Positions 4,883-22,214 of a DNA stretch of 64,000 nucleotides are shown one piece after another. Each line of letters opens with the position of its first letter. The stretch's first letter is position 1. Source of the stretch: Psychrobacter aestuarii. GTDB taxonomy: Bacteria > Pseudomonadota > Gammaproteobacteria > Pseudomonadales > Moraxellaceae. Under the pieces are notes generated by a model. The model did not search any database. It was not told the origin of the DNA and saw only the letters and a program-made list of their open reading frames with translations. Position numbers and translations under genes: made by a program. The stretch is taken from NCBI RefSeq assembly GCF_904846035.1, contig NZ_CAJGYT010000001.1, positions 124,001 to 188,000 on the forward strand. The letters run 5' to 3'.

Positions 4883-6292
4883 ATGACAGACATAACCAAC
4901 ACCCGTGACGTGATCAGTGGCAGTACAGCCACACCTTATCTCAGCGCCGCCAAAAAAATCGGTCTGCTGTCCATGATTTCGATATGCATTGGCTTGGTCG
5001 TGGCGCAAGGCGCTATGATTTCAGGTCTACAAGGTATCGGTATCGGCGGCAGTGCGTTTATTGCCGCTATGGTAGCTGGGCTGATTATCGCGCATTTTAA
5101 TGCCATGAGTTTTTCTGAATTATCGCTGATGTTTCCAGAAGAGGGCACACTGGCAACCTACACCCAAAAAGCCATCGGTCATTTCCCAGCCATCATTTCT
5201 GTCTATGCAGGCTACATTTTGGTTGGCATATTGGGTATGACGGTCGAGCTGTTTTTGGTCGATGCCATACTCGAAGCGGTCTTTCCGGGGCTGATGCCGC
5301 CGAAGTTTCTTGCGCTTTTGATATTGCTGCTGCTGTGTATTACAAACCTATACGGCGCGAATATCTTTGCTAAGGTGCAAAACCTTATCGTCGTCGTGAT
5401 GGTAGGCGCTATCTTATTTATCGGTATCGTCGCCATTTTTGATTTGGCGCCGATTCCTGAAATCACGGGTCCACAGGTCAGCTTTGGTATGGAAGGCGTG
5501 ACCAATGGCAGCTTTATCAGCCTGATTGCGTTATCTATGTGGCTCTTCGTTGGTGCAGAGTTTATTTGTCCAATGATTAATGAGGTCAAAAACCCCACCA
5601 AAAACATTCCCGCCTCGATGCATATTGCCGTGACCTTTATCTTTGTGATGTACGTCATCTTTATCGTTGGTGCGACGCATTTCCTAAGCGCTGAGACGTT
5701 GGCGACTTCTGATGTACCGTATATCGACTATGCCATCGCTGTGTTTGGTCCAACGGGTATGATGGTTGCGGCGGTCATGGCGCTTGCCGCGACCTTTAGT
5801 AGTGCCAACACCATCTTGGCTGCCTTGCCACGTATGCTCTACGGTATGGCAGAACAAAATCAGTCGTTCCCTATTTTAAAGAAAGTCAACCGATTCGGTG
5901 CGCCATGGGTGGCGATATTATTAATGGCATTTTTAATCATGATTCCTTTCTTGGCGCTCAGCATTGATTATGTGATTGTACTCTTGATTGCTGCCACGCT
6001 CAGTTACCTGCTGGCTTACATCATTGCGCATATTGATGTGATCGTCTTGCGTCGCCGTGCACCGAACCGTGCGCGTCCTTATAAGACACCGTTTTATCCC
6101 ATACCACAAATCCTAGGCATCATTGCGATGATCTATGTCATCATCAACAGCTCACCAACCCCTGAAATGGCGTCGCAAATTTTCACCTTCTTTGGTGGTA
6201 TATTGGTGGTGATTGGTACGATAGCGGCTATTTGGGTCAAGCTATATATGAAAAAAGGCTTGTTTGAAGCAGATGAGATAGAAGCCAATTAA
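4883..6292 (+). CDS. APC-family amino acid/amine permease
   Basis: The 469-residue inner-membrane protein has about 12 hydrophobic segments typical of the amino acid-polyamine-organocation superfamily. The first helix has GLVVAQGAMISGLQGIGIGG, a helix-breaking glycine-rich stretch at the substrate site of this fold, and the mid-protein NEVKNPTKNIPASM is the usual APC loop. The RBS is poor (AAAGGCTT 8 bases upstream). It lies downstream of the aldehyde dehydrogenase and ends at a good terminator, so the two probably form an operon taking up and oxidising an amine or amino acid. The substrate cannot be read from the sequence. Confidence 0.9.
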   Translation: MTDITNTRDVISGSTATPYLSAAKKIGLLSMISICIGLVVAQGAMISGLQGIGIGGSAFIAAMVAGLIIAHFNAMSFSELSLMFPEEGTLATYTQKAIGHFPAIISVYAGYILVGILGMTVELFLVDAILEAVFPGLMPPKFLALLILLLLCITNLYGANIFAKVQNLIVVVMVGAILFIGIVAIFDLAPIPEITGPQVSFGMEGVTNGSFISLIALSMWLFVGAEFICPMINEVKNPTKNIPASMHIAVTFIFVMYVIFIVGATHFLSAETLATSDVPYIDYAIAVFGPTGMMVAAVMALAATFSSANTILAALPRMLYGMAEQNQSFPILKKVNRFGAPWVAILLMAFLIMIPFLALSIDYVIVLLIAATLSYLLAYIIAHIDVIVLRRRAPNRARPYKTPFYPIPQILGIIAMIYVIINSSPTPEMASQIFTFFGGILVVIGTIAAIWVKLYMKKGLFEADEIEAN

Positions 6293-6320
6293 AACCTAAG
6301 AAATCCTGATATCGCTCTAG

Positions 6321-6343
6321 CCCTGCACCCGCAGGGTTTTTTT
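6321..6343 (+). terminator. Rho-independent terminator after the APC permease
   Basis: The stem CCCTGC / GCAGGG with an ACCC loop is followed directly by seven T residues. It closes the aldehyde dehydrogenase-permease transcript. Confidence 0.9.
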
Positions 6344-6480
6344 ATTGTCAATCAATCATTGTTCATATCAATAAATAGTTGCTTGAAAAAGTTTGTTATT
6401 CATCTTACTGTAGGGACTGCAATCACTGTTACCACGGTAAATGTATCCCAAGGTAATTTTATTAAATATATATAAATCAT

Positions 6481-6496
6481 ATATTTAGTTAAATAT
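6481..6496. promoter_or_regulatory. AT-rich palindrome, possible operator
   Basis: ATATTTA-GT-TAAATAT is a perfect 7-bp dyad about 450 bases upstream of the biotin carrier gene. It could bind a regulator of the carboxylase/5-oxoprolinase operon. No regulator gene lies next to the operon, so this rests on symmetry only. Confidence 0.3.
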
Positions 6497-6653
6497 GATT
6501 AATATTGCGTCTATACTGCGATTGCTGATGTTTTTTTATTATGGATGATAAAGAAATACTGAAGTCTCAAGAAAATATTGTCCACAGCAGTATTACAAGG
6601 CGATACACACCATTTATCGCAACCCACATAAGTACTGATGCAAGGAAGCAGTC

Positions 6654-6809
6654 ATGTCACATGTCACACCGCGCTTAATACGCCGCACAAACTTGCCGCA
6701 GTCACCTTGTGTGAAGCACAGTGCGCCTAACGCCTACGCGCAAGCATCCTTTTGCAAAAACAATACTGATTTATTACCCATCAACCAGCATACCGAGTCT
6801 GGCGTATAG
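6654..6809 (+). CDS. Candidate 51-residue small protein
   Basis: An ATG with AAGGAAG five bases upstream opens a 51-codon frame ending in TAG at 6807-6809. The product begins MSHVTPRLIRRTNLPQ and is polar, with two cysteines, no membrane segment and no known domain. It lies in the leader of the carboxylase/5-oxoprolinase operon. It could be a real small protein or leader peptide, or a chance frame with a good ribosome site. Confidence 0.2.
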   Translation: MSHVTPRLIRRTNLPQSPCVKHSAPNAYAQASFCKNNTDLLPINQHTESGV

Positions 6810-6939
6810 CGTGCTGCCTAAAAAAGGCGCGCCATACAATCGCTTTATGCTTGTTCTGCTTTAAACCGTTGATGTTAAGAGTTTTAGATTAAGCCGCCAT
6901 AAAAGTAAAAACCGCAAAACTAATGGAATAGTAACGACT

Positions 6940-7449
6940 ATGAATATTGATTTTAACCACCTCGAGCAGCTGATAAAGATAGCCGAAAATGCGGACATTC
7001 ATGCCTTAGAAGTCACTGATGGTGCGATGCGCATCAACATCATCTGTCAGCCGAACCCCAACCTTGGCAACGCGTCAGTAGCGCCATCGAGCAGCGCAGC
7101 AGCGGCGAAAAGCGCAAGCACAGACACCACGAGCACACCCGATACGCTTGATGATAACGATAATGAAAATGCCGCACCAAGCGAGCCGAATGCGGCAGAC
7201 GCGCCCGCGAATGAGGTGCCTGCGCCCATGCTAGGTACGTTCTATCGCCGCTCAAACCCTGATGCTGAGGCGTTTGTTGAGGTAGGCGCAGCGGTTGAGG
7301 CAGGGCAGACGCTGTGCATCATCGAGGCCATGAAAATGATGCACGAGGTCAAGGCAGACTATGCAGGCAAGGTCACAGATATCTTGGTCGATGATGGCGA
7401 CATCGTAGAGTACGGGCAGCCGCTGCTCGTTATTGAGCCGAGCGCATAA
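6940..7449 (+). CDS. Biotin carboxyl carrier protein (AccB-like)
   Basis: The 169-residue protein has an AccB-like N-terminal domain (residues 1-36), an Ala/Ser/Asp-rich flexible linker (about 45-92), and a C-terminal biotinyl domain with the EAMKM motif, so Lys132 is the predicted biotin site. It shuttles carboxyl groups between a biotin carboxylase and a carboxyltransferase. The partner carboxylase gene follows, and pxpB/pxpC come next. The first gene of this operon may therefore serve a special carboxylase or 5-oxoprolinase complex rather than fatty-acid synthesis. A separate housekeeping accB would be expected elsewhere in the genome. Confidence 0.93.
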   Translation: MNIDFNHLEQLIKIAENADIHALEVTDGAMRINIICQPNPNLGNASVAPSSSAAAAKSASTDTTSTPDTLDDNDNENAAPSEPNAADAPANEVPAPMLGTFYRRSNPDAEAFVEVGAAVEAGQTLCIIEAMKMMHEVKADYAGKVTDILVDDGDIVEYGQPLLVIEPSA

Positions 7450-8909: not shown

Positions 8910-9575
8910 ATGGCATTACAAACCTTACAGTGGCACATTGGCAGTGAACATAACTTGGTGTTGTTTTTTCCTGCGCCCATCACCTTGGACAAACAAAAAA
9001 AATGCTGGGCACTGGCGGACATCATCGAACCCTTTGACGATGTCAAAGAAGTCCTTATCGGTATGAATAGCCTAAGCGTATTTAGCAATGCACCGACATG
9101 GCGCGCGTTTCAAACGCTAAAAGAAACGCTCACCGCGCTGCTGGATGACATACCTGAAAAGCACATCGATGGCAAACATATCGAAATCCCCGTCCATTAC
9201 GGCGGCAAATACGGTCCTGACTTGTCCGCGCTTGCGCAGTCGCTTGGCATGAGCGTAGAAGACGTCGTCAAGCGCCACACCAGCGCCACTTATACTGTGT
9301 ACTTTATTGGCTTTCAGCCGGGGTTTCCGTATTTGGGCGGCTTGCCTGAAGACTTGTATTTCCCGCGCCACGCCACGCCCAGAACCCAAGTGCCCGCAGG
9401 CTCGGTCGGTATTGGCGGCGAGCAGACTGGGATTTATCCGTTTTCCTCACCAGGCGGCTGGCAGCTGCTCGGGCAGACCGATACCGCCTTGTTTGACTTG
9501 GCGGACAGCACGCCCACGCTGCTGAGTGCAGGCGATACCTTGTGTTTTCGGGCGATAGACATTTATGAAGCGTGA
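8910..9575 (+). CDS. pxpB: 5-oxoprolinase subunit PxpB (KipI-like)
   Basis: The 221-residue protein has the PxpB/KipI/allophanate-hydrolase-subunit-1 signature YFIGFQPGFPYLGGLPEDL and the following PRTQVPAGSVGIGGEQTGIY. With PxpC and PxpA it forms the ATP-dependent 5-oxoprolinase that opens 5-oxoproline (pyroglutamate) to glutamate. The same domain is one half of the carboxyltransferase part of urea carboxylase. It starts 27 bases after the biotin carboxylase stop, with GGAG upstream. Older databases name it allophanate hydrolase subunit 1. Confidence 0.93.
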   Translation: MALQTLQWHIGSEHNLVLFFPAPITLDKQKKCWALADIIEPFDDVKEVLIGMNSLSVFSNAPTWRAFQTLKETLTALLDDIPEKHIDGKHIEIPVHYGGKYGPDLSALAQSLGMSVEDVVKRHTSATYTVYFIGFQPGFPYLGGLPEDLYFPRHATPRTQVPAGSVGIGGEQTGIYPFSSPGGWQLLGQTDTALFDLADSTPTLLSAGDTLCFRAIDIYEA

Positions 9576-9624
9576 TCAGCACAACAGCTTTATACCAATA
9601 AATAAGACTCACTAGGCGGTATCC

Positions 9625-10548
9625 ATGAATATTTTAACCCTCAATGCACCGAGCAGTATTCAAGACTTAGGGCGCTTGGGCTATCGCAGTATGGGCGTAG
9701 GCAGTAGCGGCGCGATGGACGGCTGGGCGCTACAGGCGGGCAATGCCTTGATGAAAAACCCACCGAACACGCCAGCGCTGGAGCTGGCACTGGGCAGCAT
9801 GACGATAGCGATCACTGAGGACGTGAGCTTTTGTATCACAGGCGCGCTGTACGAAGCCTATCTCGATGACGAGCGCCTTGCAGGCTATTGGCGCATTAAC
9901 GCAAAAAAAGGGCAGACGCTCAAACTCCAGCGCCCGATAGACGGCATGTACAGCTATCTGTGCGTGCATGGCGGTTTTGCCGTCGCGCCGATATTGCAAT
10001 CGACCAGTACCAATCTGTCCGCAGGCTTTGGCGGTATTTATGGTCGCGCCCTGCAAGCGGGCGATAGCTTAGCCCTCAACACCGCTACCCATTTGCCCAG
10101 TATTGGCGTGGCGCGTCTTACCAGACCTGAGACGATTCGCATCATCAAAAGCAGCGAATACGAAAACTTCACCTCAGCGGCGCACACAGCACTGCTTGAG
10201 ACGGCGTGGCAATTACAAACCAGCAGCAACCGTATGGGCTATCGCTTGGCAGGGGCAGCGACGCTTGATTTGTCCGAGCCATTACAGATGCCCTCGCACG
10301 GCGTGGATAGAGGCATGATTCAAGTGCCGCCGCAAGGTCAGCCGATTGTCTTAATGGCAGACGCGCAGACCACAGGTGGCTATCCAAAGATTGCTGCCGT
10401 GATTGACGCCGATATTGGACTGATGGCGCAGATTGCCTTTGGTAAATCATGCCGCTTTGAACTTATTGATGCCGAACAGGCTTTTTTAGCACAACAACAC
10501 CGACAACGCTATATCCATGAAATACAGGAGTATGCCAATGAACATTGA
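9625..10548 (+). CDS. pxpC: 5-oxoprolinase subunit PxpC (KipA-like)
   Basis: The 307-residue protein belongs to the KipA/allophanate-hydrolase-subunit-2 family. It opens with LNAPSSIQDLGRLGYRSMGV and carries the SNRMGYRLAG and MPSHGVDRGMIQVPP stretches near the C-terminus. It pairs with PxpB to form the second half of the carboxyltransferase-like enzyme. It overlaps the start of pxpA by 11 bases, which indicates translational coupling. Confidence 0.93.
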   Translation: MNILTLNAPSSIQDLGRLGYRSMGVGSSGAMDGWALQAGNALMKNPPNTPALELALGSMTIAITEDVSFCITGALYEAYLDDERLAGYWRINAKKGQTLKLQRPIDGMYSYLCVHGGFAVAPILQSTSTNLSAGFGGIYGRALQAGDSLALNTATHLPSIGVARLTRPETIRIIKSSEYENFTSAAHTALLETAWQLQTSSNRMGYRLAGAATLDLSEPLQMPSHGVDRGMIQVPPQGQPIVLMADAQTTGGYPKIAAVIDADIGLMAQIAFGKSCRFELIDAEQAFLAQQHRQRYIHEIQEYANEH

Positions 10549-11281
10549 TTTAAATGCCGATGTCGCCGAAAACTGCGGACAAGACGAGGCACTGATGCGT
10601 ATCGTCAGCTCTGCCAATGTCTGCTGCGGACTGCACGCAGGCTCGTATGCCGAAATGCTGGCGACCTTGCAGCTTGCCAAAGAGCACGGCGTCCGCGTCG
10701 GCGCGCATCCAGGATTTTTTGATAGAGACAACTTTGGGCGCACCCAGCAAACGCTGGATGAAACAGGCTACCGCGCCTTACTTGCCTATCAGCTGGGTGC
10801 AACCAAAGCGCTGTGTGACTTGGTCGGCGTGTCTTTGGACTACGTCAAACCGCATGGCGCGCTGTATAACCAAGCGGCAGCGGATGAGACACTCTCCGAC
10901 ATTATCGTCAGCGAAATCAAGCGCTTTGACCCAAATCTAAAGGTCATGGGACTCTCAGGCGGACAGCTGGTCGCGGCAGCCAAGCGCCACGGTATGCACG
11001 CCATCTCCGAAGTCTTTGCCGACAGAAACTACGAAAAAGACGGCACCTTGGTGTCACGCACAAAAGACAATGCGCTTATCACCGATACCGATGCCGCCGT
11101 GCGCCATGTGCTACAGATGATTACCAAAGGCACGGTGACCAGTGTTTGCGGTAGCGAAGTGCCTGTCGAGGCGGACAGCATTTGCCTGCACGGCGACGGT
11201 GAGCACGCCATCGCCTTTGCGCAAGAGATTAAAAAACAACTGCAAGACAAAGGCATCACTATCGCAGCATCACACACTTAA
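10538..11281 (+). CDS. pxpA: 5-oxoprolinase subunit PxpA (LamB/YcsF family)
   Basis: The 247-residue product starts with the family's MNIDLNADVAE and has SANVCCGLHAG, VGAHPGFFDRDNFGR and DYVKPHGALYNQA, the conserved His/Asp motifs of the LamB/YcsF fold. It is the third subunit of the ATP-dependent 5-oxoprolinase. ATG 10538 has AGGAG seven bases upstream. The frame is open further back to ATG 10517, which lacks a site at the right distance. The start lies inside the end of pxpC. Confidence 0.94.
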   Translation: MNIDLNADVAENCGQDEALMRIVSSANVCCGLHAGSYAEMLATLQLAKEHGVRVGAHPGFFDRDNFGRTQQTLDETGYRALLAYQLGATKALCDLVGVSLDYVKPHGALYNQAAADETLSDIIVSEIKRFDPNLKVMGLSGGQLVAAAKRHGMHAISEVFADRNYEKDGTLVSRTKDNALITDTDAAVRHVLQMITKGTVTSVCGSEVPVEADSICLHGDGEHAIAFAQEIKKQLQDKGITIAASHT

Positions 11282-11314
11282 TGGGTTAATGGCATAGAAC
11301 AAGGACGTTTGTTT

Positions 11315-12502
11315 ATGAGTACTTTAAAAAAACACAATAGCGCCATCTTGGGTGCGGCATTCTTGATGGCGACTTCCGCCGTTGGACCAGGGTTTTTGAC
11401 CCAAACGGCGACCTTTACCGAAAGCTTGCTGGCGAGCTTTGGCTTTGTCATCTTGGTGTCTATCATCATGGATATCGGTGTACAGCTGAATGTTTGGCGC
11501 ATCGTGGCAGTTTCTAAAATGCGCGCGCAAGAGATTGCCAATAAGGTCTTTCCAGGCGTCGGCTATCTGCTTGCCTTTTTGATTATCGCAGGGGGGCTCG
11601 CGTTTAATATCGGTAATATCGGCGGCGCGGGTTTGGGCATGCAGTCAGTGTTTAATATCTCACCGATTACAGGCGCGCTCATCAGTGGTGTTATTGCGGT
11701 CGCCATCTTTTTGGGTCGTGAGACAGGACCGATTATGGACAAGTTTGCCCAGCTTATGGGCTTTGTGCTGATTGTCCTGATTATTTATGTGGTGTTCCAG
11801 TCTGATCCGCCACTTGCCGAGGCGGCAGTACGCACCATCGCCCCTGAAAAGATTGACGCGATGGCGATTGTGACCCTTGTTGGCGGTACGGTCGGCGGCT
11901 ACATTACTTTCTCAGGCGCACACCGCTTGTTAGAGGCGGGCGTGACGGGTGAAGAAAATCTAGATTCAGTGACGCGCAGCTCCATCACAGGCATCTTGGT
12001 CGCCTCCGTGATTCGCGTCTTTTTATTCCTTGCCGTGCTTGGCGTGGTCTCACAAGGCTTAACCTTAGACCCTGCCAACCCTGCAATGTCACCGTTTCAA
12101 CACATTTTAGGTAATGTGGGCAAGATTGTCTTTGGTATCGTGATTTGGGCAGCTTCGGTAACTTCAGTGATTGGCGCGGCATATACTTCCGTGTCTTTTA
12201 TGACCAACTTTCACCCGTTCATTGAGCAACACAAGCGCTACTTTATCATTGGCTTTATCGTCATCTCGACTTTGGTCTTTGCCACCATCGGCAAACCTGC
12301 GCAGGTCTTGGTATTGGTCGGTACGCTCAACGGCTTGGTCTTGCCGATTGCGATGGTGATTGTTTTGATTGCGGCGTATCGCAAAAACATCATTGGTAAC
12401 TATCGTCACCCGCTATGGATTGCCGCCTTTGGTTGGTTAATCGCCATCGCCATGAGTGTGCTCAGCGTCATGACCATCGCCAATTACTTGGGCATGAGCT
12501 AA
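11315..12502 (+). CDS. NRAMP-fold transporter of the 5-oxoprolinase operon
   Basis: This 395-residue inner-membrane protein has about 11 hydrophobic segments and resembles the NRAMP-type protein (YcsG) that accompanies pxpA in Bacillus. The helix-1 motif that binds metal in true NRAMPs (DPGN) reads GPGF here, and the helix-6 MPHN motif is replaced by a GGTVGGYI stretch. It is therefore unlikely to carry manganese or iron. Its place in the operon suggests uptake of 5-oxoproline or a related acid, which is inference. ATG 11315 has AAGGACG upstream; the TTG at 11309 is less likely. Confidence 0.85.
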   Translation: MSTLKKHNSAILGAAFLMATSAVGPGFLTQTATFTESLLASFGFVILVSIIMDIGVQLNVWRIVAVSKMRAQEIANKVFPGVGYLLAFLIIAGGLAFNIGNIGGAGLGMQSVFNISPITGALISGVIAVAIFLGRETGPIMDKFAQLMGFVLIVLIIYVVFQSDPPLAEAAVRTIAPEKIDAMAIVTLVGGTVGGYITFSGAHRLLEAGVTGEENLDSVTRSSITGILVASVIRVFLFLAVLGVVSQGLTLDPANPAMSPFQHILGNVGKIVFGIVIWAASVTSVIGAAYTSVSFMTNFHPFIEQHKRYFIIGFIVISTLVFATIGKPAQVLVLVGTLNGLVLPIAMVIVLIAAYRKNIIGNYRHPLWIAAFGWLIAIAMSVLSVMTIANYLGMS

Positions 12503-12549
12503 CTGCCAGCAGCCACACCATAGCGCAATCAATAATCAGGAGATGAATC

Positions 12550-12981
12550 ATGGACATAGAACAAATAAAACGCGTGATTGAAATGGTCGAGCGCAGCCAA
12601 CTGCATGAAGTGAGTGTCACCGATGGCGCGCAGTCTATCAAAGTGACCAATAAGACAGCGGCGGGCGCGACCGCACCTGCGGGCAAGCAAAAAGCAGCAC
12701 AGCCGCAAGCATCAGACAGCGGCGATGATGCGGTAAAAACAGTATCCGCGACACACGTCGGTATGCTTTATCTGAGCAAAGACGGTGCGACTGACGCGCT
12801 GGTGACCGTCGGCGCTGCTATAGAAAAAGGACAGACGGTCTGCTATATCGAAGAGCTGACCCGCCTGCTGCCTGTGGTCAGTGAGCATGATGGCATTGTC
12901 AGTGCGATATTGGCTGAGCATGGTCAAGGTGTGGAATACGGGCAAGAGATTTTTGAGGTTGAGGGGGGTAGGTGTTCATAG
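12550..12981 (+). CDS. Biotin-carrier-like protein lacking the biotin lysine
   Basis: The 143-residue protein has the same layout as the carrier at 6940-7449: an AccB-like N-terminus (residues 1-34), a short Ala/Gln-rich linker, and a lipoyl/biotinyl-fold domain (about 65-140). Where the carrier has EAMKM, this one reads EELTR, putting Thr104 in place of the modified lysine. It therefore cannot be biotinylated at the usual place. It is the last gene of the operon, has CAGGAGA upstream, and is intact. A structural or regulatory role in the complex is possible. The family assignment is good; the function is open. Confidence 0.85.
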   Translation: MDIEQIKRVIEMVERSQLHEVSVTDGAQSIKVTNKTAAGATAPAGKQKAAQPQASDSGDDAVKTVSATHVGMLYLSKDGATDALVTVGAAIEKGQTVCYIEELTRLLPVVSEHDGIVSAILAEHGQGVEYGQEIFEVEGGRCS

Positions 12982-13093
12982 CCGAGTAACCATTGATAGT
13001 TGACATCATACTACTTTGGCTAAATTTTGTTCATGTTTTTGCACTTCTCTATTCTAGCTATACCAATTTACGTGTTACTATATTGTTTCTTTA

Positions 13094-13135
13094 GGTTGCA
13101 AACTGCAAGTAGATATGCAGTTTGCAGCCTTTTTC
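13094..13135 (+). terminator. Strong terminator between the carboxylase operon and Zorya
   Basis: A 14-bp stem, GGTTGCAAACTGCA with TGCAGTTTGCAGCC (one G-T pair), closes an 8-base loop and is followed by TTTTT. It ends the carboxylase/5-oxoprolinase transcript and insulates zorA, so Zorya has its own promoter in the remaining 105 bases. Confidence 0.92.
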
Positions 13136-13240
13136 CCGTTTATAAGCGCCAAAACGCCAAGCAAACAATCGTTAAATGCTTTTAGTATGAATGGGTTATA
13201 TGAAACACTTAATGTTTACTTTACATATTAGGTAGCACTG

Positions 13241-15298
13241 ATGAATGCTTTAGAGACGGCACAATTCCTCCAAGATTATTTTGTTTTGCCTATATCCATG
13301 GGCGTCATTCTGGTTATTGCGCTTTCCTTCTTCACAGCAAAATATATACTTCCTGCGGTCAGATTAAATAAGAAAATGTCAGATGTCACAAAATATCTGA
13401 GTGATAATACTGAGCAAGGAAAAGATGTATTAGATGAAAAGTTTTCGCATCAAAACACTTTAAAACAAGCATGGGTAAATTACAAAAAGACCTTGCATAA
13501 TGAATATGAGGTAATAGATGGAGAAAGTGTTGTCAAAAATACGCTAGCCACGATGCCTAGTGACTATTTTTTCTCTGAGACTGTCATTGTTGACAATAAC
13601 TTGAATGTAGAGTTTTTCAAACACTTGCCAGGAATAATTACTGGTATTGGTATTATTGCGACTTTTCTGGGTTTGTTGGTTGGTGTGTGGGCATTTGATC
13701 CTGCAGGTAACCCTGAAAACGTGAATGACAGCTTGGGATTGTTATTAGGAGGTGTTGCTGAAGCATTCATGGCTTCTGGTTTAGCAATTGCAGCCGCTAT
13801 GGTTATAACATTCATTGAGAAATTCTTATTAAGAAGTTGTTATGCCTCCTTACATGAGTTAACTACAGCGATTGATAATACGTTTACGCCCGCAAAAAAT
13901 GGCGAGTATTACTTGGATGAGCTATTAAAATCTTCCCAAGCCAATGAAGCCAACGCTCGACAGCTAAAAGACAGCTTGGTAAATGATCTAAAAGCCATGA
14001 TGACTAATTTGGCGGCAGAAAACAGCAAGAGTCAGGCAGCGCTCGCCGCTAAGCTCAGCGAATCTTATGCCCAATCCAGCCAGTCTATGGCAGCACAGAT
14101 CGGAGACTCTATCAAAGACAGCTTTCAAGAGCCGTTAGATAAAATTGCCTCTAGTGTACAGCAGGTGAGTGGTGACCAAGGCTCAGCCGTTCAAGATTTG
14201 ATGACAGATGTGTTGACAGCATTTATGAGTAAGCTTGAGACCACATTCGGCAGTCAGATGACGGGCATGAGCGACATGATGACGCAGTCTGTAAGCGCCA
14301 TGCGTGAGATGCAGGTGGGGTTTTCGCAACTGATTGCTGATATGCAAACTAACAGTGAAGCCTCAACCAAAACCTTAGAAACGCAGATGGCTGCGATGAT
14401 TGAAGACATTCAGCAAAAGCAGCAAGCAATGGCAAGTCAAATGAATACCATGGTCGAGCAGTTATCGACAGGCGCGGCTAAGATGGGCGAGCAGAGCCTA
14501 CATGCGACTGAGCAGCTCAATCAAAAAGTAAGCGAGCTGGTCGGCAGTCTAGACGGCGCGATGTCAGGACTGCTCTCAAATATTGCCAATCAGCGTCTAG
14601 AGCAAGACCGTCAAATTGCAGACAATCAGCAGAAACTACACGAGCAGTCTTCGACACTTATTGATGACTTGGGTAGCGAGATACAGGCACTGATTACGCA
14701 AAGTCAAGAAACTACGCAGGCTTACAAAGACAACATCCAAAAGCTGTCACAAGTGACCACAGACAGTATCAGTGGTATGAATGCTGGTGCAGAAAAAATG
14801 CGTCAGGCGTCCGAATCCTTTAGCACGGCGGGTAACGGCTTAAGCACAGTCACAGACAAAACCACAGCCTTGATTAAAGAAGTCAATACCGCATCGACCA
14901 ACCTCACCAGCGCCAGTAGCAATCTTATTGAGCTGATTCGAGACTATAAAAACTCGCAAAATAGTGTCAATGTGGCAATCACGGCATTAGAGAATCTACT
15001 CAAGCAATCTCAATCTGAGGCAGGCATGAGTACTCAAATGCTCACTGATATGCAAAAAATGACCACGTCATTAAGCCAAGTTGGCTCAGAAATGCAGACA
15101 TATCTCAATCAAGTCAGCGATGTCTTGGTCAACAGCTTTGACAGCTTTGGTGAGTCAGTGGAAAAGAGCTTAAATCATTCATTGATGTCTTTTGACAACA
15201 CTTTAGATCAGGCGGTAAAACGTCTTGCCACAGGTGTGGAAGGGCTTGGCAATGTGGTTGAAGATCTTGAGGATCTTACACAAGCAACAAGACGCTAA
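13241..15298 (+). CDS. zorA: Zorya motor subunit ZorA (MotA/TolQ/ExbB-type proton channel)
   Basis: The 685-residue inner-membrane protein has three membrane segments at about 15-37, 131-151 and 168-191, with GIGIIATFLGLLVGVWAF and GGVAEAFMASGLAIAAAM forming the channel pair. Polar residues Thr141 and Ser179 sit where MotA-type channels have ion-path residues. From about residue 215 the protein is a very long Gln/Ser/Met-rich coiled coil, the cytoplasmic tail typical of ZorA. With ZorB it forms a proton-driven rotary motor that senses phage entry at the envelope. The first 700 bases are more AT-rich than the neighbours. AGGTAG precedes ATG 13241. Confidence 0.95.
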   Translation: MNALETAQFLQDYFVLPISMGVILVIALSFFTAKYILPAVRLNKKMSDVTKYLSDNTEQGKDVLDEKFSHQNTLKQAWVNYKKTLHNEYEVIDGESVVKNTLATMPSDYFFSETVIVDNNLNVEFFKHLPGIITGIGIIATFLGLLVGVWAFDPAGNPENVNDSLGLLLGGVAEAFMASGLAIAAAMVITFIEKFLLRSCYASLHELTTAIDNTFTPAKNGEYYLDELLKSSQANEANARQLKDSLVNDLKAMMTNLAAENSKSQAALAAKLSESYAQSSQSMAAQIGDSIKDSFQEPLDKIASSVQQVSGDQGSAVQDLMTDVLTAFMSKLETTFGSQMTGMSDMMTQSVSAMREMQVGFSQLIADMQTNSEASTKTLETQMAAMIEDIQQKQQAMASQMNTMVEQLSTGAAKMGEQSLHATEQLNQKVSELVGSLDGAMSGLLSNIANQRLEQDRQIADNQQKLHEQSSTLIDDLGSEIQALITQSQETTQAYKDNIQKLSQVTTDSISGMNAGAEKMRQASESFSTAGNGLSTVTDKTTALIKEVNTASTNLTSASSNLIELIRDYKNSQNSVNVAITALENLLKQSQSEAGMSTQMLTDMQKMTTSLSQVGSEMQTYLNQVSDVLVNSFDSFGESVEKSLNHSLMSFDNTLDQAVKRLATGVEGLGNVVEDLEDLTQATRR

Positions 15299-15315
15299 TT
15301 TTGGAGTAAATACCA

Positions 15316-16047
15316 ATGCTTGGTAACCGATATGCCAAAAAAGTGCGCCAAAAAGACGAAGGTGAAAAGCCCTTTTGGATTTCATTTGCAGATTTAATGA
15401 CCGCTCTCATGACCCTGTTTTTGGTGGTGATGGCGGTGTCGTTGATGGTAGTGACCAAAAAAATCAATGAAGCCACGCAGGCGGAAGAAGAACGTACATC
15501 AGAGATTTTGGACATTTGCACCAGTATGAAAACGGAGCTTGCCGCAAAAAATCCGCTGATTACTGTGGACTGTAAAGAAAACCGTATTAACTTTGGTGAA
15601 GCAGGGCGCTTTGGACATAATGATTATCGTCTGAACGAGGCAGGTATAGAGGCGCTCAGCACCCTAGTCCCTGTGGTTTTAAATGCTGCCAATAGTGACA
15701 ATGGTAAAAAATGGTTTAAGCAAATTGTGATAGAAGGGTTTACGGATACCGATGGCTCGTATCTGTACAACTTAAACCTCAGCTTACGCCGTTCTGAATG
15801 GGTGATGTGCAGCTTATTAGACCCTAATTTCAACCCAAACTTAACACTAACAGAGGCACAAAAAAACCAAATCAAACAGCTGTTTTTGGCAGGCGGTGTG
15901 TCCTTTAATGCCGCAAAGGACAGCAAAGAAGCCTCTCGCCGTGTTGAGCTGCGTATGCAATTTTACGGACTAAAAGACAAAGACACTGCCGAAGAGCAGC
16001 CAAATTTTGTGTCTGCACCTATTGAGATTTGTCAATTGCCACGGTGA
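15316..16047 (+). CDS. zorB: Zorya motor subunit ZorB (MotB/OmpA-type)
   Basis: The 243-residue protein has one membrane segment at about 22-47 that begins WISFADLMTALM. Asp26 is the predicted proton-carrying residue. The periplasmic part ends in an OmpA-like peptidoglycan-binding domain with GFTDTDGSYLYNLNLSLRRS at about 141-160. It anchors the ZorA/ZorB motor to the cell wall. It follows zorA by 17 bases with GGAG upstream, and its stop overlaps the spacing of zorC's start, so the genes are co-translated. Confidence 0.95.
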   Translation: MLGNRYAKKVRQKDEGEKPFWISFADLMTALMTLFLVVMAVSLMVVTKKINEATQAEEERTSEILDICTSMKTELAAKNPLITVDCKENRINFGEAGRFGHNDYRLNEAGIEALSTLVPVVLNAANSDNGKKWFKQIVIEGFTDTDGSYLYNLNLSLRRSEWVMCSLLDPNFNPNLTLTEAQKNQIKQLFLAGGVSFNAAKDSKEASRRVELRMQFYGLKDKDTAEEQPNFVSAPIEICQLPR

Positions 16048-16049
16048 TT

Positions 16050-17486
16050 ATGATGAGTATTACTGCCCTACAAGACAGACTGAATCGAAGTGTACGCAAG
16101 TTTGCTGATGACGACCGAGTCTTTGATAAGTTTGTCAAACCGCATCGACTGACAAAAACACTGCATCTGATTGAACGCAGATTCGATGAGATTGAAAATG
16201 CGCAGCCTGTTGAAGAAAAGCTGCTTAAGTCACTTGCAAAACTGGAGCAAAAAGGCGCAACCAATCTGAGCAAGCGTGACTGGAAGAATCTGTCTTGGGC
16301 ATTGAGTCAAAAACTGCTGAACTATGAGGAAAAAATACTATTTACCTTTGTAGGTACTCAGCTGGTCGAGCAGTTTAACCAAATGCATTTTGAGCGCATT
16401 AAGACAGTCTATTTTCCCTTACTCTATAGCTACTTTGCGGTAGAAAAAAGTGAGATAGACAAGCGTCCTAACAACTGGGTCGCGCTCAGAGCGATACTAA
16501 ACACACACCGTTCTACGCTATTTCAAAATACGCCACGTCCAAAGCAGTGGCTGACGACACTTAGCGACTATCCTGAGGTGCTGTCCAATGAGCCATCTAA
16601 GCGATTTATTCAAGACTTCTTGCACAGTGGCAATAATAGCGTCAGCACGCAGCTGGCGAGTTTAAATATCGCACCCAACAGCTGGTTTTGGCAAAGTCTG
16701 ATAGAAGCCTGTATAAAATCGATAAAAAATATGGCAGAAGATGATTTTATTGCCATGATTCCGCATTTTTTGCGACTACAACAACAAAATCAGCTGTATA
16801 CCACAGACATTTTAAAGGCACTGCTTGAGCGTTACGCATCTACCTCACAGCGTGGCTTGGTACATGAAGATTTAAAACAAGTCTGTTTGACGCATTGGGG
16901 CAATCCGCAGTATGACGCTGCCGCAGGCTGGAAAAACGTCAGCGAGTCAACCAAAAACATGGTCATTCAGTGGTTCGTTAGAGCGGACTTAGAAGCCTTC
17001 TTTAAATTGTTCAGTCACACCGCTGATGTGCATCGTTTCGATTACTGGATTAAATTTATCGATAAAATATCCTTTTCACAGATATTTTTAGGCTCGGCTG
17101 CTTGGAGCTCTAAAAACCCTGAGCACAAAGCTTTTAGAGAAAAGAACCGTGGTCGCCTAAAGGAGCTGGTCGGCTCATCGCCCAGCAATAACGCTTTTTT
17201 ATTAAAAATTGATAATGTCTATATTGTTGATTTTTCAGATACAGGCAACGCCTGTTATGGCTATAGCCAGTTGCCGTTTAATACAGAACGCAGGTCAACA
17301 TCGATATCAGATTTAAAAAATAAACAGCGCTCTGTCTTCAAAAATGACTATAACGAAGGTATAGGCTTGAGCCACGCTGGTAATTGGGAAAAACGCTTTG
17401 ATGAGCGACTTGCTGAGATTGGAATATTTGCCAATAAAGAAAGCAAGCCAACATCAAGATATGCGTATCAAAAAAGACGCTACTAA
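16050..17486 (+). CDS. zorC: Zorya protein ZorC (EH-signature domain)
   Basis: The 478-residue protein is mostly helical and soluble, with no membrane segment. Its C-terminal third contains the region expected for the EH-signature domain of type I ZorC (FLGSAAWSSKNPEHKAF, LKIDNVYIVDFSDTGNACYG, then GNWEKRFDERLAEIG). In the published model ZorC is a DNA-binding effector partner recruited on phage invasion. Two adjacent ATGs at 16050 and 16053 lie two bases after the zorB stop. The frame runs back to a TTG at 16029, which is unlikely. It was identified by its place between zorB and zorD as much as by motifs. Confidence 0.88.
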   Translation: MMSITALQDRLNRSVRKFADDDRVFDKFVKPHRLTKTLHLIERRFDEIENAQPVEEKLLKSLAKLEQKGATNLSKRDWKNLSWALSQKLLNYEEKILFTFVGTQLVEQFNQMHFERIKTVYFPLLYSYFAVEKSEIDKRPNNWVALRAILNTHRSTLFQNTPRPKQWLTTLSDYPEVLSNEPSKRFIQDFLHSGNNSVSTQLASLNIAPNSWFWQSLIEACIKSIKNMAEDDFIAMIPHFLRLQQQNQLYTTDILKALLERYASTSQRGLVHEDLKQVCLTHWGNPQYDAAAGWKNVSESTKNMVIQWFVRADLEAFFKLFSHTADVHRFDYWIKFIDKISFSQIFLGSAAWSSKNPEHKAFREKNRGRLKELVGSSPSNNAFLLKIDNVYIVDFSDTGNACYGYSQLPFNTERRSTSISDLKNKQRSVFKNDYNEGIGLSHAGNWEKRFDERLAEIGIFANKESKPTSRYAYQKRRY

Positions 17487-17495
17487 GAGACAATT

Positions 17496-20400
17496 ATGAA
17501 ATTGGCATTTTGGAAAAAAAACAAGCGTACAGAGCCTGAGACAAACCAACAGGCGGCTAACAGTCATGCGGCAGCCGTATTAAAGTACGACGATATCGGG
17601 TTACAGTATTCTGGCACTGCCGACACGTTTTCAGATACGCATAGCTACTGGGAGAGTCTGGTAGATGAAGACATCGCTTATAAGCTTGATGGTCATTATG
17701 TCCTCCCGTGGGAAACACTGTTTCAAATTCAGCAAGACCCTGAGCATCAAGGCGTTATTCATTTACTCGCGCTACCACCGACCAGTGATTTACGTCCACT
17801 GATTCGTAGTGAAAATGGGTTGAGCGACCCTGATTTTAAAATCATTCTAGATGGCTGGTTGGATAAGAACCATGTTAGATTAACAGATAACGTCAAGCGA
17901 ACAGGTGCGATTGTCACTATTGCAGGTAAGGAATATTTGCTCTCACAGGCGACGTGGTCGCTGCTAGAAAAAATTAAAGATTTTTATCGTTTAGCGCCTA
18001 AAGACGAGCACACAAACAAAAAATACTGGGCGCAAATACGCACTTTGGCAACGAAAAGTGGCGCCAATATGGACGAATTTTTAAAAGATACCATCGTCCT
18101 TGCGCCAGAAGTGCTGCAACTTAACTTACGTAAAAATTTGATTGATACCGAGTCTGTCGTAGAGATACAGCCCAGCTTTAATGACGCCCCTGAAAACTGG
18201 TTGCAAGCATTTGACAGTTACAACGAGGTGCAAAACCAGTATACCATCAGCTTGCCTGAAGGTGGCTTGGCGCATGTCATTATTGAGCCAAAGGTCAAGC
18301 ACGTCTTAAACGAAATCAAAAAAATGCCCAATCGCCGTGTATCTGGCGAACGTGCGCAAACCTTTTTGCACAATCCCTTTGCCCAGCTGGGTGAAGATGC
18401 CACACAGGTCATCTCTGAAGACAGCTTTACTGCATCTAAAGAAAAAGCAGAGATATTTACCTATAGTGCGCGTCTAGAAAAAAGCTATGACGACCTCGCG
18501 CATTTGGTTTCAGTGACCATAACATTGCATGAAAACTCTGAGCGTAACCAACCGACAAAAACTTTGGCACTTGTCAATCTTAGCCAAATCGGTCATTTTA
18601 TTGACACCTACGAAAAGCCTGCGCCCACTCTTATGTGGGCAGGATATACGATAGATAAAAACCGATATTTGGATAATGAGGTTGACGCATTAAAACATAA
18701 TTTGGCGCAGATTCAGCAGTATGACGACGACTTACAAGCCAAAACGGTACTCGACTTAACCAGATACAGTGATAGGGTTGTGGGTATTGGTGAGGCAGAG
18801 CCACTCAATACCAAAGCCATTCAAAAGGACAGTGGCGAGTCTGGATGGTTGCCTGAACATCTCGAGACAGAATCAGAAGGTGGTTTGGCAGCCACTACGG
18901 ACATGAATGCTGATACGGCGACTGATGCGGCAATGGCACTTGAGCAAAGTATTTTGCAGGCAGAGGCAGATGGTAATAGCGAGGTACGGCATCCTGACAC
19001 AGGTGCACCATTAAGCATCGCTGATGCGAAGCAGTTATTAGCTCGTTTACAGAATCCAGATACTGCAGAATCTGCTTCTACGACAGACGCGTCAAAGGAC
19101 AGTGAGAAAAAAAAGAAATCGACACTGCTTATCGCCAACAATATAGACGAAGCCGATTTTACAAAACAGCGTGCTGAAATCTTATTGTTTGATGACAGCA
19201 ATCGTCCTACAGCAAAAATACCCTCTAGCTTTAGAAATCAAGAATTTGCCTTAAAAAACCATCAAGAGTACGGGATTGCATGGCTACAGAATCTCTATCA
19301 ATACGCACCCAACCAAGTCGGTGGATGCTTATTAGCAGATGATATGGGGCTGGGTAAAACGCTGCAATTACTGAGCTTTATCGGTGAATATCTAGAAACA
19401 GCAGAACACAAAAAGCCTGTATTGGTGGTCGCGCCTGTGTCGCTGCTCGAAAACTGGGAGGCTGAGGCGAAGCGCTTTTTTAGTGCCAAATTCGGTACTA
19501 TCTTAAAGCTGTATGGTGATGGTCTAAAGCAACGAAAAATACCAAAACATGCCATTTCGGCTGAGCTAAAAAACAATTATGGCATCACAAACTTGCTAGA
19601 GGAAGACTGGCTAGGTAATGCTGATATCATATTGACGACCTACGAAACCATGCGCGACTTGGAGTTTTCTTTGGGTCGCGTTGATTGGAGCATTATGGTA
19701 TGCGATGAGGCACAGAAGATTAAAGTGCCAACCGCCATGGTGACCAAGGCAGCAAAAGCACAAAAGGCAGACTTTAAAATCGCTTGTACAGGGACACCAG
19801 TAGAAAATTCACTCGTTGACTTGTGGTGTTTGTTTGATTTTATTCAAGAAAATCTGCTTGGCTCGCTAAGCGAGTTCAATAAAAACTACAGGCGTCCGAT
19901 TGAGAAAAACGAAGACCAAGACAACCGTATCTTAGAGCATTTAAGAGCGCTTATTGCACCGCAAGTGCTTAGACGTATGAAGTATGACGTCGCTGACTTA
20001 CCACCAAAGCACGAAGTCAATGATTGTAAAAATATTAACATATCGCCACTACAGCTTGAGCAGTACAACCATGCCTATGGCGATTTTAAACACTCTTCCG
20101 AGCAAGGTAACAGGGGAAGCATGCTTGCTGTACTGCATAAAATACGCATGATTTGCGCGCACCCGCTAAAGTACCAACAGCATGCCCCACTACAAAGCTC
20201 GCCTAAAGCTGAATGGCTACTGTCTACGCTTGAGACTATCAAACAAAAAGAAGAAAAGGTGATTGTTTTTACTGAGTTAAGAGAGGTTCAGGTTTTTCTA
20301 AAAAGCTTGCTCATGCAAAGGTTTGGTTTGAATGTTGCCACAGTAAATGGCAGCTCCAATACCAACAGCAAACAAGGGCTAACGCGCCAAGACACCATTG

Positions 20401-20729
20401 ATAAATTTCAAAATACACGCGGTTTTAACGTTATTATTTTGTCCACTATTGCCGTAGGTTTTGGGGTCAATATTCAAAAGGCAAACCATGTCATCCACTA
20501 CACACGTAGCTGGAACCCTGCCAAAGAAGACCAAGCCACGGATAGAGCGTACCGTATCGGTCAAGAGAAAGCCGTTTACGTCTATTATCCCTCTATCGCC
20601 GCGCCAAACTTTGAGACGTTCGAGATTAAGCTAGATAAGCTGCTATCGAGCAAACGTAAACTTGCCGATGATATGCTAAAACCCAGTATAGAGCTGGAAA
20701 AAGAGCTATTGCAGTCTTTTCAGTCATAA
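17496..20729 (+). CDS. zorD: Zorya nuclease/helicase ZorD (SNF2-type)
   Basis: The 1077-residue protein has a long N-terminal region of unknown fold (1-590) that includes an acidic Ala/Thr/Asp-rich linker at about 440-550. A SNF2/Swi2 ATPase follows: DDMGLGKTLQLLSF (about 615), the DEAQ box in VCDEAQKIK (about 736), TGTPVENSL, and the C-lobe motifs VGFGVNIQKANHVIHY and DRAYRIGQ (about 1020). In type I Zorya it is the effector that degrades or blocks invading DNA. It starts 9 bases after zorC. All helicase motifs look intact. Confidence 0.94.
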   Translation: MKLAFWKKNKRTEPETNQQAANSHAAAVLKYDDIGLQYSGTADTFSDTHSYWESLVDEDIAYKLDGHYVLPWETLFQIQQDPEHQGVIHLLALPPTSDLRPLIRSENGLSDPDFKIILDGWLDKNHVRLTDNVKRTGAIVTIAGKEYLLSQATWSLLEKIKDFYRLAPKDEHTNKKYWAQIRTLATKSGANMDEFLKDTIVLAPEVLQLNLRKNLIDTESVVEIQPSFNDAPENWLQAFDSYNEVQNQYTISLPEGGLAHVIIEPKVKHVLNEIKKMPNRRVSGERAQTFLHNPFAQLGEDATQVISEDSFTASKEKAEIFTYSARLEKSYDDLAHLVSVTITLHENSERNQPTKTLALVNLSQIGHFIDTYEKPAPTLMWAGYTIDKNRYLDNEVDALKHNLAQIQQYDDDLQAKTVLDLTRYSDRVVGIGEAEPLNTKAIQKDSGESGWLPEHLETESEGGLAATTDMNADTATDAAMALEQSILQAEADGNSEVRHPDTGAPLSIADAKQLLARLQNPDTAESASTTDASKDSEKKKKSTLLIANNIDEADFTKQRAEILLFDDSNRPTAKIPSSFRNQEFALKNHQEYGIAWLQNLYQYAPNQVGGCLLADDMGLGKTLQLLSFIGEYLETAEHKKPVLVVAPVSLLENWEAEAKRFFSAKFGTILKLYGDGLKQRKIPKHAISAELKNNYGITNLLEEDWLGNADIILTTYETMRDLEFSLGRVDWSIMVCDEAQKIKVPTAMVTKAAKAQKADFKIACTGTPVENSLVDLWCLFDFIQENLLGSLSEFNKNYRRPIEKNEDQDNRILEHLRALIAPQVLRRMKYDVADLPPKHEVNDCKNINISPLQLEQYNHAYGDFKHSSEQGNRGSMLAVLHKIRMICAHPLKYQQHAPLQSSPKAEWLLSTLETIKQKEEKVIVFTELREVQVFLKSLLMQRFGLNVATVNGSSNTNSKQGLTRQDTIDKFQNTRGFNVIILSTIAVGFGVNIQKANHVIHYTRSWNPAKEDQATDRAYRIGQEKAVYVYYPSIAAPNFETFEIKLDKLLSSKRKLADDMLKPSIELEKELLQSFQS

Positions 20730-20821
20730 GGCATAGCAGTTGGTATAGATGACGATGCTCAGGACTAAGAATTAACCCTTGTCCTGCTAACAATATATTG
20801 GAAGGGCTGTCTTTGCTTATT

Positions 20822-20875
20822 CTAACCGCAGACTGACCGATCGTATCATGATAAATGGGATAGACTGCGGTTTAG
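20822..20875. terminator. Imperfect hairpin downstream of zorD
   Basis: CTAACCGCAG at 20822-20831 pairs with CTGCGGTTTAG at 20865-20875 with one bulged base, over a loop of about 33 bases. It lies between zorD and the convergent leftward gene at 20976. There is no T-run, so termination is uncertain. The right arm overlaps one copy of a 16-bp repeat found again at 23162. Confidence 0.4.
20855..20870 (+). repeat. 16-bp direct repeat, copy 1
   Basis: ATGGGATAGACTGCGG occurs here and, identically, at 23162-23177. The two copies flank the three leftward genes between zorD and recC. After the core both copies continue with similar sequence (TTTAGACAC and CTGTAAACAC). Confidence 0.7.
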
Positions 20876-20975
20876 ACACAGCACTACTAAATATCCAAAA
20901 CCCAAAGAAAGGCTCAGCATACTGCATTTGTCTTATATTCAAATAACTTGGATTCAAAGACAAACAACATCAGTA

Positions 20976-21266
20976 TCAGACCACCACAAATGCCATCACA
21001 AAAGCAATAATGAACGCCAAAACAAAACCCATGATGACGCACAGTTGCGGTACAGGGGTGTCTTTTTTTGAGAAGCCATATTCTATAAGGGACAGCACGA
21101 AAAATATCGCTATGGCGGGCAGAGCCACTGCATCTCTAGTGATACCATGATCCATCACCAAGCTCAAGGCAATAAAAACAATGATATAAGCCAAGCTGAC
21201 AGAGGTTGCAAACCCAATCGGCTTTAATACACCCCTGTTTTTTGCCGAGTTGTTATTCACTCTCAT
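20976..21266 (-). CDS. Small integral membrane protein, unknown function
   Basis: The 96-residue product has three hydrophobic segments (about 17-38, 48-63 and 72-96) after a basic N-terminus, MRVNNNSAKNR. No family is recognised. The stop TGA and start ATG are both clear, but the ribosome site is weak. The last helix ends in VVV directly at the stop. It is convergent with zorD and lies about 100 bases downstream of the binding-protein-like gene on the same strand. It could be a genome-specific membrane protein. Confidence 0.55.
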   Translation of the reverse strand: MRVNNNSAKNRGVLKPIGFATSVSLAYIIVFIALSLVMDHGITRDAVALPAIAIFFVLSLIEYGFSKKDTPVPQLCVIMGFVLAFIIAFVMAFVVV

Positions 21267-21362
21267 AAAAACGCTGTTTCATACTTTTAATGCTTTGGTA
21301 AATATTATTTGGAATTTGCCTCTACAGATTGCTGTCTCAAAAGTTTTGATGATTAAGTGTAG

Positions 21363-22214
21363 TTACTTTCCATCCTTTAACGCATCAGCCACATCGACGG
21401 TCGATTCTTTATTTTCTACTGTTGTAGGATTAAACAGCTCATCAATGCTCTTTTGATAGCCGTCGATATTGCCATAATCGTGACGGCTTAGCACATCTTG
21501 CCCTTCGCTTGAGAGGATATAATTGCGAAAGCTGATGGCAGCAGGGTTGTTGGTCAATATCATGCCCTCGACCGCTTGCTCACTGCTTGGGTGGATGGCG
21601 TAACTAAAGGCATTGAGCTGGCGTGATTCGCTGTTGTCGTGGGTCTTTGGCTCAGCCGTCGCGACAGCATCGTTATTGGTGTCCGTGTCGCTGTTTGTGT
21701 CGGTGTCAGAAGAGAGCATGTCCGCTGCGACCGATTCAGGCGTTTCTTCTGGGGCAGGGGTTTGCTCGGCGGCGGCATTGCGCTTTTCTTGAGCGCTATT
21801 AAGAATGTCTTGCAGACTTTTGATTTGCGCTTTTGCCAGCTTGGTATCGCTCATAATTACGTCGGTATCGACCATATATTTGCTACTGACATCTTTGTTG
21901 GCAGCGATATTGAACAGTGCGGCATTATCCACATAGTCCACAGCGATTTGGGTATTGGGATAGCGCGACTCAAAGCGTACAATCAGGTCGTCCAATACTT
22001 GCTGCAAGCGGGTATCGGCTTTGATGTTTACCGTAGCGGTATGAATCGACTCGCCGTCTGCCCCTTCTGTTTCGTTGGTGCGGGTGTCGGCGACGATAGG
22101 AACAGGATTGATATTCTTGCGGTTATGGCTCCACAGCCAAGCGAATATCAATACAAAGACAATAAGTGTCAGTAATAACGCGCCTGCCAGCAGTAACTTA
22201 TAGTCTTTTATCAT
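21363..22214 (-). CDS. Membrane-anchored protein with a ModA-like C-terminus
   Basis: The 283-residue protein has one N-terminal membrane anchor (about 8-28) followed by a periplasmic part. Residues 60-140 hold RLQQVLDDLIVRFESRYPNT, the opening typical of type-2 periplasmic binding proteins. A Glu/Thr/Asp-rich repeat (SDTDTNSDTDTNNDAV, about 170-185) interrupts it. The C-terminus (NPAAISFRNYILSSEGQDVL) looks like the end of molybdate-type binding proteins. No transport genes are nearby. It may be a binding-protein derivative adapted to another job. The middle ligand-binding segments are shorter than in a full binding protein. Confidence 0.7.
   Translation of the reverse strand: MIKDYKLLLAGALLLTLIVFVLIFAWLWSHNRKNINPVPIVADTRTNETEGADGESIHTATVNIKADTRLQQVLDDLIVRFESRYPNTQIAVDYVDNAALFNIAANKDVSSKYMVDTDVIMSDTKLAKAQIKSLQDILNSAQEKRNAAAEQTPAPEETPESVAADMLSSDTDTNSDTDTNNDAVATAEPKTHDNSESRQLNAFSYAIHPSSEQAVEGMILTNNPAAISFRNYILSSEGQDVLSRHDYGNIDGYQKSIDELFNPTTVENKESTVDVADALKDGK

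Follow-up and report, generated by a model that had tools for sequence, protein, structure and literature searches.

A chromosomal, probably intact type I Zorya locus of Psychrobacter aestuarii with a short ZorC and a ZorA rod one 40-residue block shorter

Introduction

The way in which a Zorya motor hands its signal down a very long rod to ZorC and ZorD can be approached through a locus in the chromosome of Psychrobacter aestuarii. Four unbroken forward-strand frames, zorA, zorB, zorC and zorD, lie side by side at positions 13241–20729 of the 64,000-nucleotide stretch of DNA analysed here (the window; RefSeq assembly GCF_904846035.1, contig NZ_CAJGYT010000001.1, positions 124,001–188,000). 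A preliminary description, drawn from the letters of the window, had proposed a complete type I Zorya anti-phage system with its own promoter and had singled out the length of the ZorA tail as worth comparing. The comparisons presented below make it very probable that the window holds an intact type I Zorya system, integrated into the chromosome and belonging to a Moraxellaceae-type sub-lineage, whose ZorC has no C-terminal domain and carries Asp where the signature has Glu, and whose ZorA rod is 40 residues shorter.

PMC11890865 reports that, in a Serratia type I Zorya, deletion of any component abolished protection, that the cytoplasmic extension of ZorA and the peptidoglycan-binding domain of ZorB were both required, that intact ion flux was held necessary by the authors and that DNA damage affected the host as well as the phage. 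That source is also the basis of the model applied here by homology, in which a ZorA5B2 motor contacts the wall through ZorB, signals along its rod and recruits ZorC and ZorD. It also reports the ZorAB of Shewanella sp. ANA-3 (PDB 8vvn) with bound Na+; this complex has the same type I architecture and motor fold but is more distant from the window proteins (ZorA, 2.2e-08; ZorB, 6e-09).

Results

Type assignment and motifs of the four proteins

For each of the four proteins the best PADLOC model is of type I (ZorA1, 779 bits; ZorB1, 347 bits; ZorC1, 722 bits; ZorD1, 1395 bits), with the type II alternatives far lower (ZorA2, 57 bits; ZorB2, 68 bits) and DpdE, at 844 bits, as the next other family for ZorD. 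The top solved-structure matches of all four proteins are type I Zorya proteins aligned over most or all of their length (8qyd, 8r68 and 8qy7, which we take to be E. coli type I Zorya proteins, 8qy7 being its ZorD). The comparison with type I sets that had been proposed thus agrees with the original assignment, and the adjacent, open frames (Table 1) support the reading of 13241–20729 as a complete type I set whose motor and helicase motifs appear intact.

ZorA matches the PADLOC model PDLC00598 (ZorA1; E = 1e-234), exceeds the cut-off of the NCBIfam ZorA_3 subfamily NF033916 (563.7 against 250) and aligns with PDB 8qyd (E = 4.9e-114). Its hydrophobic windows cover residues 9–42 and 128–198, the second being long enough to hold two helices, in keeping with the three-helix channel first described. 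Thr141 and Ser179 align with a Thr and a Ser of E. coli ZorA that presumably make up the polar ring. ZorB matches PDLC00611 (ZorB1; E = 1.9e-104) and 8qyd_F (E = 9.2e-89). Its single hydrophobic stretch, residues 19–51, holds Asp26, and Pfam MotB_plug and OmpA both score above cut-off, so that the placing of Asp26 in the one helix of ZorB, ahead of an OmpA-type anchor, also stands.

The helicase ZorD matches PDLC00632 (ZorD1) with an E-value of 0 and 8qy7 over residues 49–1064 (E = 3.5e-241), and both Pfam SNF2-rel_dom and Helicase_C are above cut-off. ADDMGLGKT (from residue 614), DEAQ (737), GTPVEN (766), STIAVGFGVN (983) and DRAYRIGQ (1016) are presumably its SNF2 motifs, Walker motifs among them; all five are intact, as the preliminary description had it. 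The zorC stop and the zorD start (17484–17498) lie in one frame, 9 nucleotides apart, and this arrangement is found in 9 of 11 loci, the window included. Read-through of the stop would consequently yield a ZorC-ZorD fusion. Open frames of about 1560 amino acids (aa) listed for four relatives were considered as such fusions and rejected, since the DNA of all four has a TAG stop.

Table 1. Features of the Zorya locus and its surroundings (positions in the window)
Feature	Position	Strand	Description
Terminator hairpin followed by U's	13093–13130	+	between the accB-like gene and zorA; 15-bp stem, -24.6 kcal/mol
zorA	13241–15298	+	685 aa; MotA/TolQ/ExbB-like channel subunit with long cytoplasmic coiled-coil rod
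Missing 40-residue rod block	14540–14542 (zorA codon 434)	+	one gap against L071 in three MAFFT modes
zorB	15316–16047	+	243 aa; MotB-like, Asp26, OmpA-type peptidoglycan-binding domain
zorC	16050–17486	+	478 aa from ATG 16050; EH-signature protein without C-terminal domain
zorD	17496–20729	+	1077 aa; SNF2-type helicase effector
Stretch absent from G130	12964–21363		blastn alignment ends at 12963 and restarts at 21364

A Moraxellaceae-type sub-lineage with a short ZorC

Relatives were surveyed with an alignment of ZorB against the GTDB species genomes. A relative is encoded by 345 stretches; the 80 best of these and three further loci from plasmids make up a set of 83, whose reading frames were taken mechanically. 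Shorter, broken or contig-end-cut genes and loci without a detectable gene were dropped, which leaves a usable ZorC (at least 440 aa) in 77 of the 83 loci plus the window and a usable ZorA (at least 600 aa) in 76 plus the window; all four genes are at full length in 62. In trees built from a selection of these loci (46 rows for ZorA, 46 for ZorC and 40 for ZorD) the Moraxellaceae-type rows fall on one side of a 100/100 branch in each case. The window shares its sub-lineage, and the short ZorC model, with the Moraxellaceae-type Zorya represented by PDLC00598, PDLC00611, PDLC00614 and PDLC00632 and by the 12 loci L042–L053. Identity to L042, L044 and L053 ranges from 46 to 88% by gene, and ZorA, ZorC and ZorD are 65–71% identical to those of L042.

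The mechanical start of zorC is a TTG at 16029, within the end of zorB. The frame in 11 of 11 Psychrobacter relatives opens at the equivalent of window position 16044 (GTG) or 16050 (ATG), which makes ATG 16050, and a product of 478 residues, the most likely choice; in three Acinetobacter loci (L046, L051 and L052) the frame taken mechanically starts further upstream, within zorB. ZorC aligns with the EH-signature proteins, scoring 114 bits for Pfam PF15611 (cut-off, 27.5), so that at the level of sequence the earlier naming of the protein is upheld, and its predicted fold matches the 8r68 structure. At the position of the signature Glu, Glu400 in 8r68, the window protein has Asp394 (nucleotide 17229), while the signature His is present as His442 (nucleotide 17373). 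Asp occupies this position in 11 of the 12 full-length ZorCs of the clade, and all 78 aligned rows retain the His.

Residues 479–560 of 8r68 are unmatched in the window ZorC. This C-terminal domain is absent from all 12 full-length ZorCs of the clade, which come from Psychrobacter, Acinetobacter and one Pseudomonadaceae metagenome-assembled genome; in other ZorCs one Asp, two Gly and one Phe of the domain are invariant in 22 of 22 aligned sequences. Short ends are also found outside the clade (L054, L111 and L119) and the PADLOC type I ZorC model PDLC00614 has just 465 positions, so the domain is not taken as defining type I. In its place stands a short, mostly basic end, whose last 15 residues carry a net charge of +3 or +4 in 9 of the 12 clade members (L043, 0; L051, +1; L052, +2). 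The predicted model of the window ZorC is poorly ordered there, at residues 465–478 (predicted local distance difference test score, pLDDT, below 50).

Constraint on the four genes and the question of decay

Selection against protein change acts on all four genes: codon position 2 differs far less than codon position 3 in each of them and against all five relatives compared (for ZorC against L042, 0.18 and 0.54, respectively). The window copy is most likely functional, and its open frames together with the codon-position constraint rule out a pseudogene or degenerate locus in the window.

Several observations nevertheless weigh against an intact system. The NCBIfam equivalog cut-offs are missed by ZorA1 (537.3 against 750), ZorC (259 against 490) and ZorD (1124 against 1500), and reached by ZorB1 only (427.2 against 400), a pattern that is read here as a sign of a diverged sub-lineage. 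The missing ZorC domain, of about 80 residues, is kept elsewhere, and Asp at the signature position is not fixed in the clade, since the Psychrobacter relative P. urativorans L043 keeps Glu. A consensus scan of 12900–13400 gave no sigma-70-like site on the forward strand, and two Psychrobacter copies look broken. The type I Zorya could accordingly be decaying or working poorly, the missing domain and the lost Glu amounting to a weakened effector, and both the invariant residues of the domain in other ZorCs and the broken-looking copies favour such a view. It is nonetheless improbable: the two traits run through the clade across several genera rather than marking one strain, constraint at the protein level is visible in all four genes, Asp for Glu preserves the charge, and the His is always retained.

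Length and phase of the ZorA rod

Rod length was measured as the remainder of ZorA from residue 191, taken as the anchor. The window rod comprises 495 unbroken residues, in line with the tail of more than 400 residues first described. All 12 measurable clade members have a rod of this length and align without internal gaps, down to a pairwise identity of 64%, whereas the same clade shows 11 gap runs in ZorD and 4 in ZorC. This set was a list of loci from the outset, L047 being left out for its broken zorA. Its sister set, of the E. coli/Pseudomonas type, consists of 41 loci not chosen by length (L054–L092, L095 and L096), 39 of them with a usable ZorA. Pairwise identity among these goes down to 40%. 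Thirty-seven of the 39 rods are 534–537 residues long and free of internal gaps, and the sole internal indel is an insertion of 120 residues (rod of 654) common to L088 (E. whittamii) and L089 (E. coli E69), whose rods are identical at 645 of 654 residues. ZorD and ZorC of the sister set have 33 gap runs in 1076 columns and 53 in 567 columns, respectively; scaled to 534 rod columns, the ZorD rate predicts about 16, a rough yardstick because ZorD is globular. A first choice of sister rods by length (37 tails of 530–540 residues) was set aside, as it favours constancy. The comparison of tail length thus places the window rod 40 residues under the E. coli/Pseudomonas type and level with its own clade.

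Against the ZorA of L071, which is of the E. coli type, the difference is one 40-residue block by which the E. coli-type rod is longer (Table 1); besides this gap, the window protein has one extra residue before the rod, the same in three MAFFT modes. The hydrophobic repeat around codon 434 is 3.63–3.635 residues, so that 40 residues correspond to 11.0 turns, and the hydrophobic phase is continuous over the junction (0.34 to 0.38 turn). Similarly, the 120-residue insertion of L088 and L089 equals 33.0 turns and is in phase; with 21 of 40 residues identical at a lag of 120 it resembles a duplication. By chance, some 9% of all lengths between 10 and 130 lie within 0.04 turn of a whole number of turns and there are two cases, so the whole-turn pattern is suggestive of a phase rule rather than proof. 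The 40-residue difference is either a loss in the clade or a gain in the sister set.

Only the length differences of 40 and 120 residues were used for the phase argument. Indels of 4, 7, 11, 15, 22 and 47 residues in ZorA tails of about 23–30% identity were rejected, because the aligner favours phase-matched gaps; other indel sizes in these tails include 3, 5, 37, 55, 62, 73, 80, 107, 128 and 157. The rod repeat itself shifts from about 3.7 close to the membrane to 3.5 at the distal end.

A constant length might also reflect a general intolerance of coiled coils to insertions rather than a functional length, an explanation of appreciable though less than even probability. Anchor-based lengths of 495, 534–537 and 654 all occur, so no single absolute length is needed, and changes by whole turns (40 and 120) are what register alone allows. 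Register would, however, also permit changes of 7, 11 and 18 residues, yet one indel in 39 tails is seen where the ZorD rate, an imperfect control, predicts many more. A stronger proposal can be put forward only tentatively and is on balance doubtful: the ZorA rod would be a phase-locked drive shaft whose length evolves solely by whole-turn blocks, and the Moraxellaceae type would form a separate subtype within type I, its rod being 11 turns shorter and its handover to the effectors independent of the ZorC C-terminal domain.

The rod also bears on whether the motor is kept while ZorC is used differently, with recruitment or DNA binding through another surface, such as the short basic end, and a different phage range as the result. 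That ZorA rod and ZorC are both changed in one clade, and that most clade members share a basic end that is poorly ordered in the window model, speaks in favour of this reading, which is possible but unlikely: L043 has no basic end, L051 and L052 have a weak one, and the Formivibrio locus L054 is without the domain yet has a 536-residue rod, from which it follows that the rod and ZorC changes are not tied to each other.

Insertion site and upstream region

The Zorya genes and a 96-aa frame on the opposite strand are most simply explained as an insertion of about 8.4 kb, because G130 has the same accB-like and PBP-like genes with only 230 bp between them. G130 is the nearest genome found, its recC being 86% identical and the closest of 99 others. 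Upstream of the island lies a carboxylase-type cluster with an Nramp-like transporter, the accB-like gene being its last; downstream follow the PBP-like gene, which is under the Pfam cut-off, and recC. The longest direct word shared by the island ends is 11 bases, no inverted word of at least 10 was found there, no integration mechanism was recognised and the window has no tRNA gene. The 96-aa frame (20976–21266, reverse strand) has a relative in 1 of the 99 other same-genus genomes (G062, 48%). A wider defence island was considered and rejected: a PADLOC scan of 10 neighbouring proteins matched only two helicases after recC, taken by position as recB and recD.

The hairpin upstream of zorA is more stable than any of 200 shuffled sequences (z = -6.3); a consensus scanner did not list it. 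It is a strong terminator that ends the upstream operon and separates it from the island, which is no demonstration of a promoter. Thus, of the two upstream features first described, the terminator stands and the promoter was not recovered: the sigma-70-like scan of 12900–13400 gave two sites, both on the reverse strand, with 1.8 expected by chance. A promoter belonging to the island is still likely.

Distribution, mobility and broken copies

Twelve of 72 same-genus genomes, counting that of the window, have a ZorC of at least 55% identity, in one case a contig-end fragment; a thirteenth, G066, has just a weak ZorC piece with stops. The insertion site differs from that of the window in all 11 other Psychrobacter loci looked at. 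None of them has the flanking genes of the window within the 5–20 kb fetched, and their recC lies 0.2–0.43 Mb away on the same contig in 5 and on another contig in 6. The set therefore appears to move between sites, and the differing flanks fit repeated horizontal gain. As possible vehicles, phages and plasmids were rejected: a pattern-led scan of viral_contigs confirmed no ZorB relative, and plasmids yielded neither a close match to the operon at the DNA level nor any member of this sub-lineage. Plasmid carriage of the type does exist, with ZorB encoded at the protein level by 24 plasmid records at a best identity of about 60%.

In P. glacincola L025 (the same locus as L047) zorA is split between two frames and zorD into two pieces (5176–7249 and 9435–12654), which is either a broken copy or an assembly error. 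One Psychrobacter locus, L033, has between zorC and the zorD start a frame (9363–10304) that by eye resembles an insertion-sequence transposase. Unless the two broken-looking copies are assembly errors, the system is sometimes lost. In P. immobilis L027 a second ZorA/ZorB-like pair (14980–17207; 33% and 23% identity over the matched parts) follows the type I set, possibly two Zorya systems side by side. L054, L098, L101, L102, L110, L111 and L112 have ZorB and ZorC, and ZorA where it is not cut off, with no ZorD relative detected in about 5 kb past zorC; in L098 a 536-aa frame follows zorC.

Discussion

Gene content, homology, the predicted fold of ZorC, its missing domain, the rod lengths and their phase, selection and the insertion are directly supported by the data above. 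By analogy with the described systems, five ZorA and two ZorB would form a rotary motor of the inner membrane that is powered by ions. A disturbance of the cell wall caused by a phage would be sensed by the peptidoglycan-binding domain of ZorB, and ion flow past Asp26 would turn or reshape the ZorA rod, which in turn would recruit ZorC and the ZorD helicase to attack the incoming phage DNA. In the sub-lineage of the window, ZorC would act although it lacks the C-terminal domain that the E. coli protein has, and with Asp replacing the signature Glu; the rod is shorter by one block of 40 residues, a difference that preserves the phase of the coiled coil. Motor assembly, the sensing of phage, effector recruitment, the attack on DNA and protection of the Psychrobacter host are all inferred from that analogy.

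The system is of a known type and its sub-lineage is already represented in the PADLOC models. No description of the short ZorC, the Asp signature or the 40-residue rod difference was found in the literature searched, although the E. coli structure study may hold one; the structural differences are apparently undescribed.

For the question of how the motor signal reaches the effectors, the sub-lineage offers two natural experiments. In one, rod length has changed by exactly 40 residues, or 11 hydrophobic turns, while the remaining gene set is retained; in the other, ZorC has no C-terminal domain. Because the rod shows almost no indels, it makes in-phase and out-of-phase changes sharply informative. 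If the lineage is active, the C-terminal domain of ZorC, the side chain of the signature Glu and 40 residues of the rod would be dispensable in nature.

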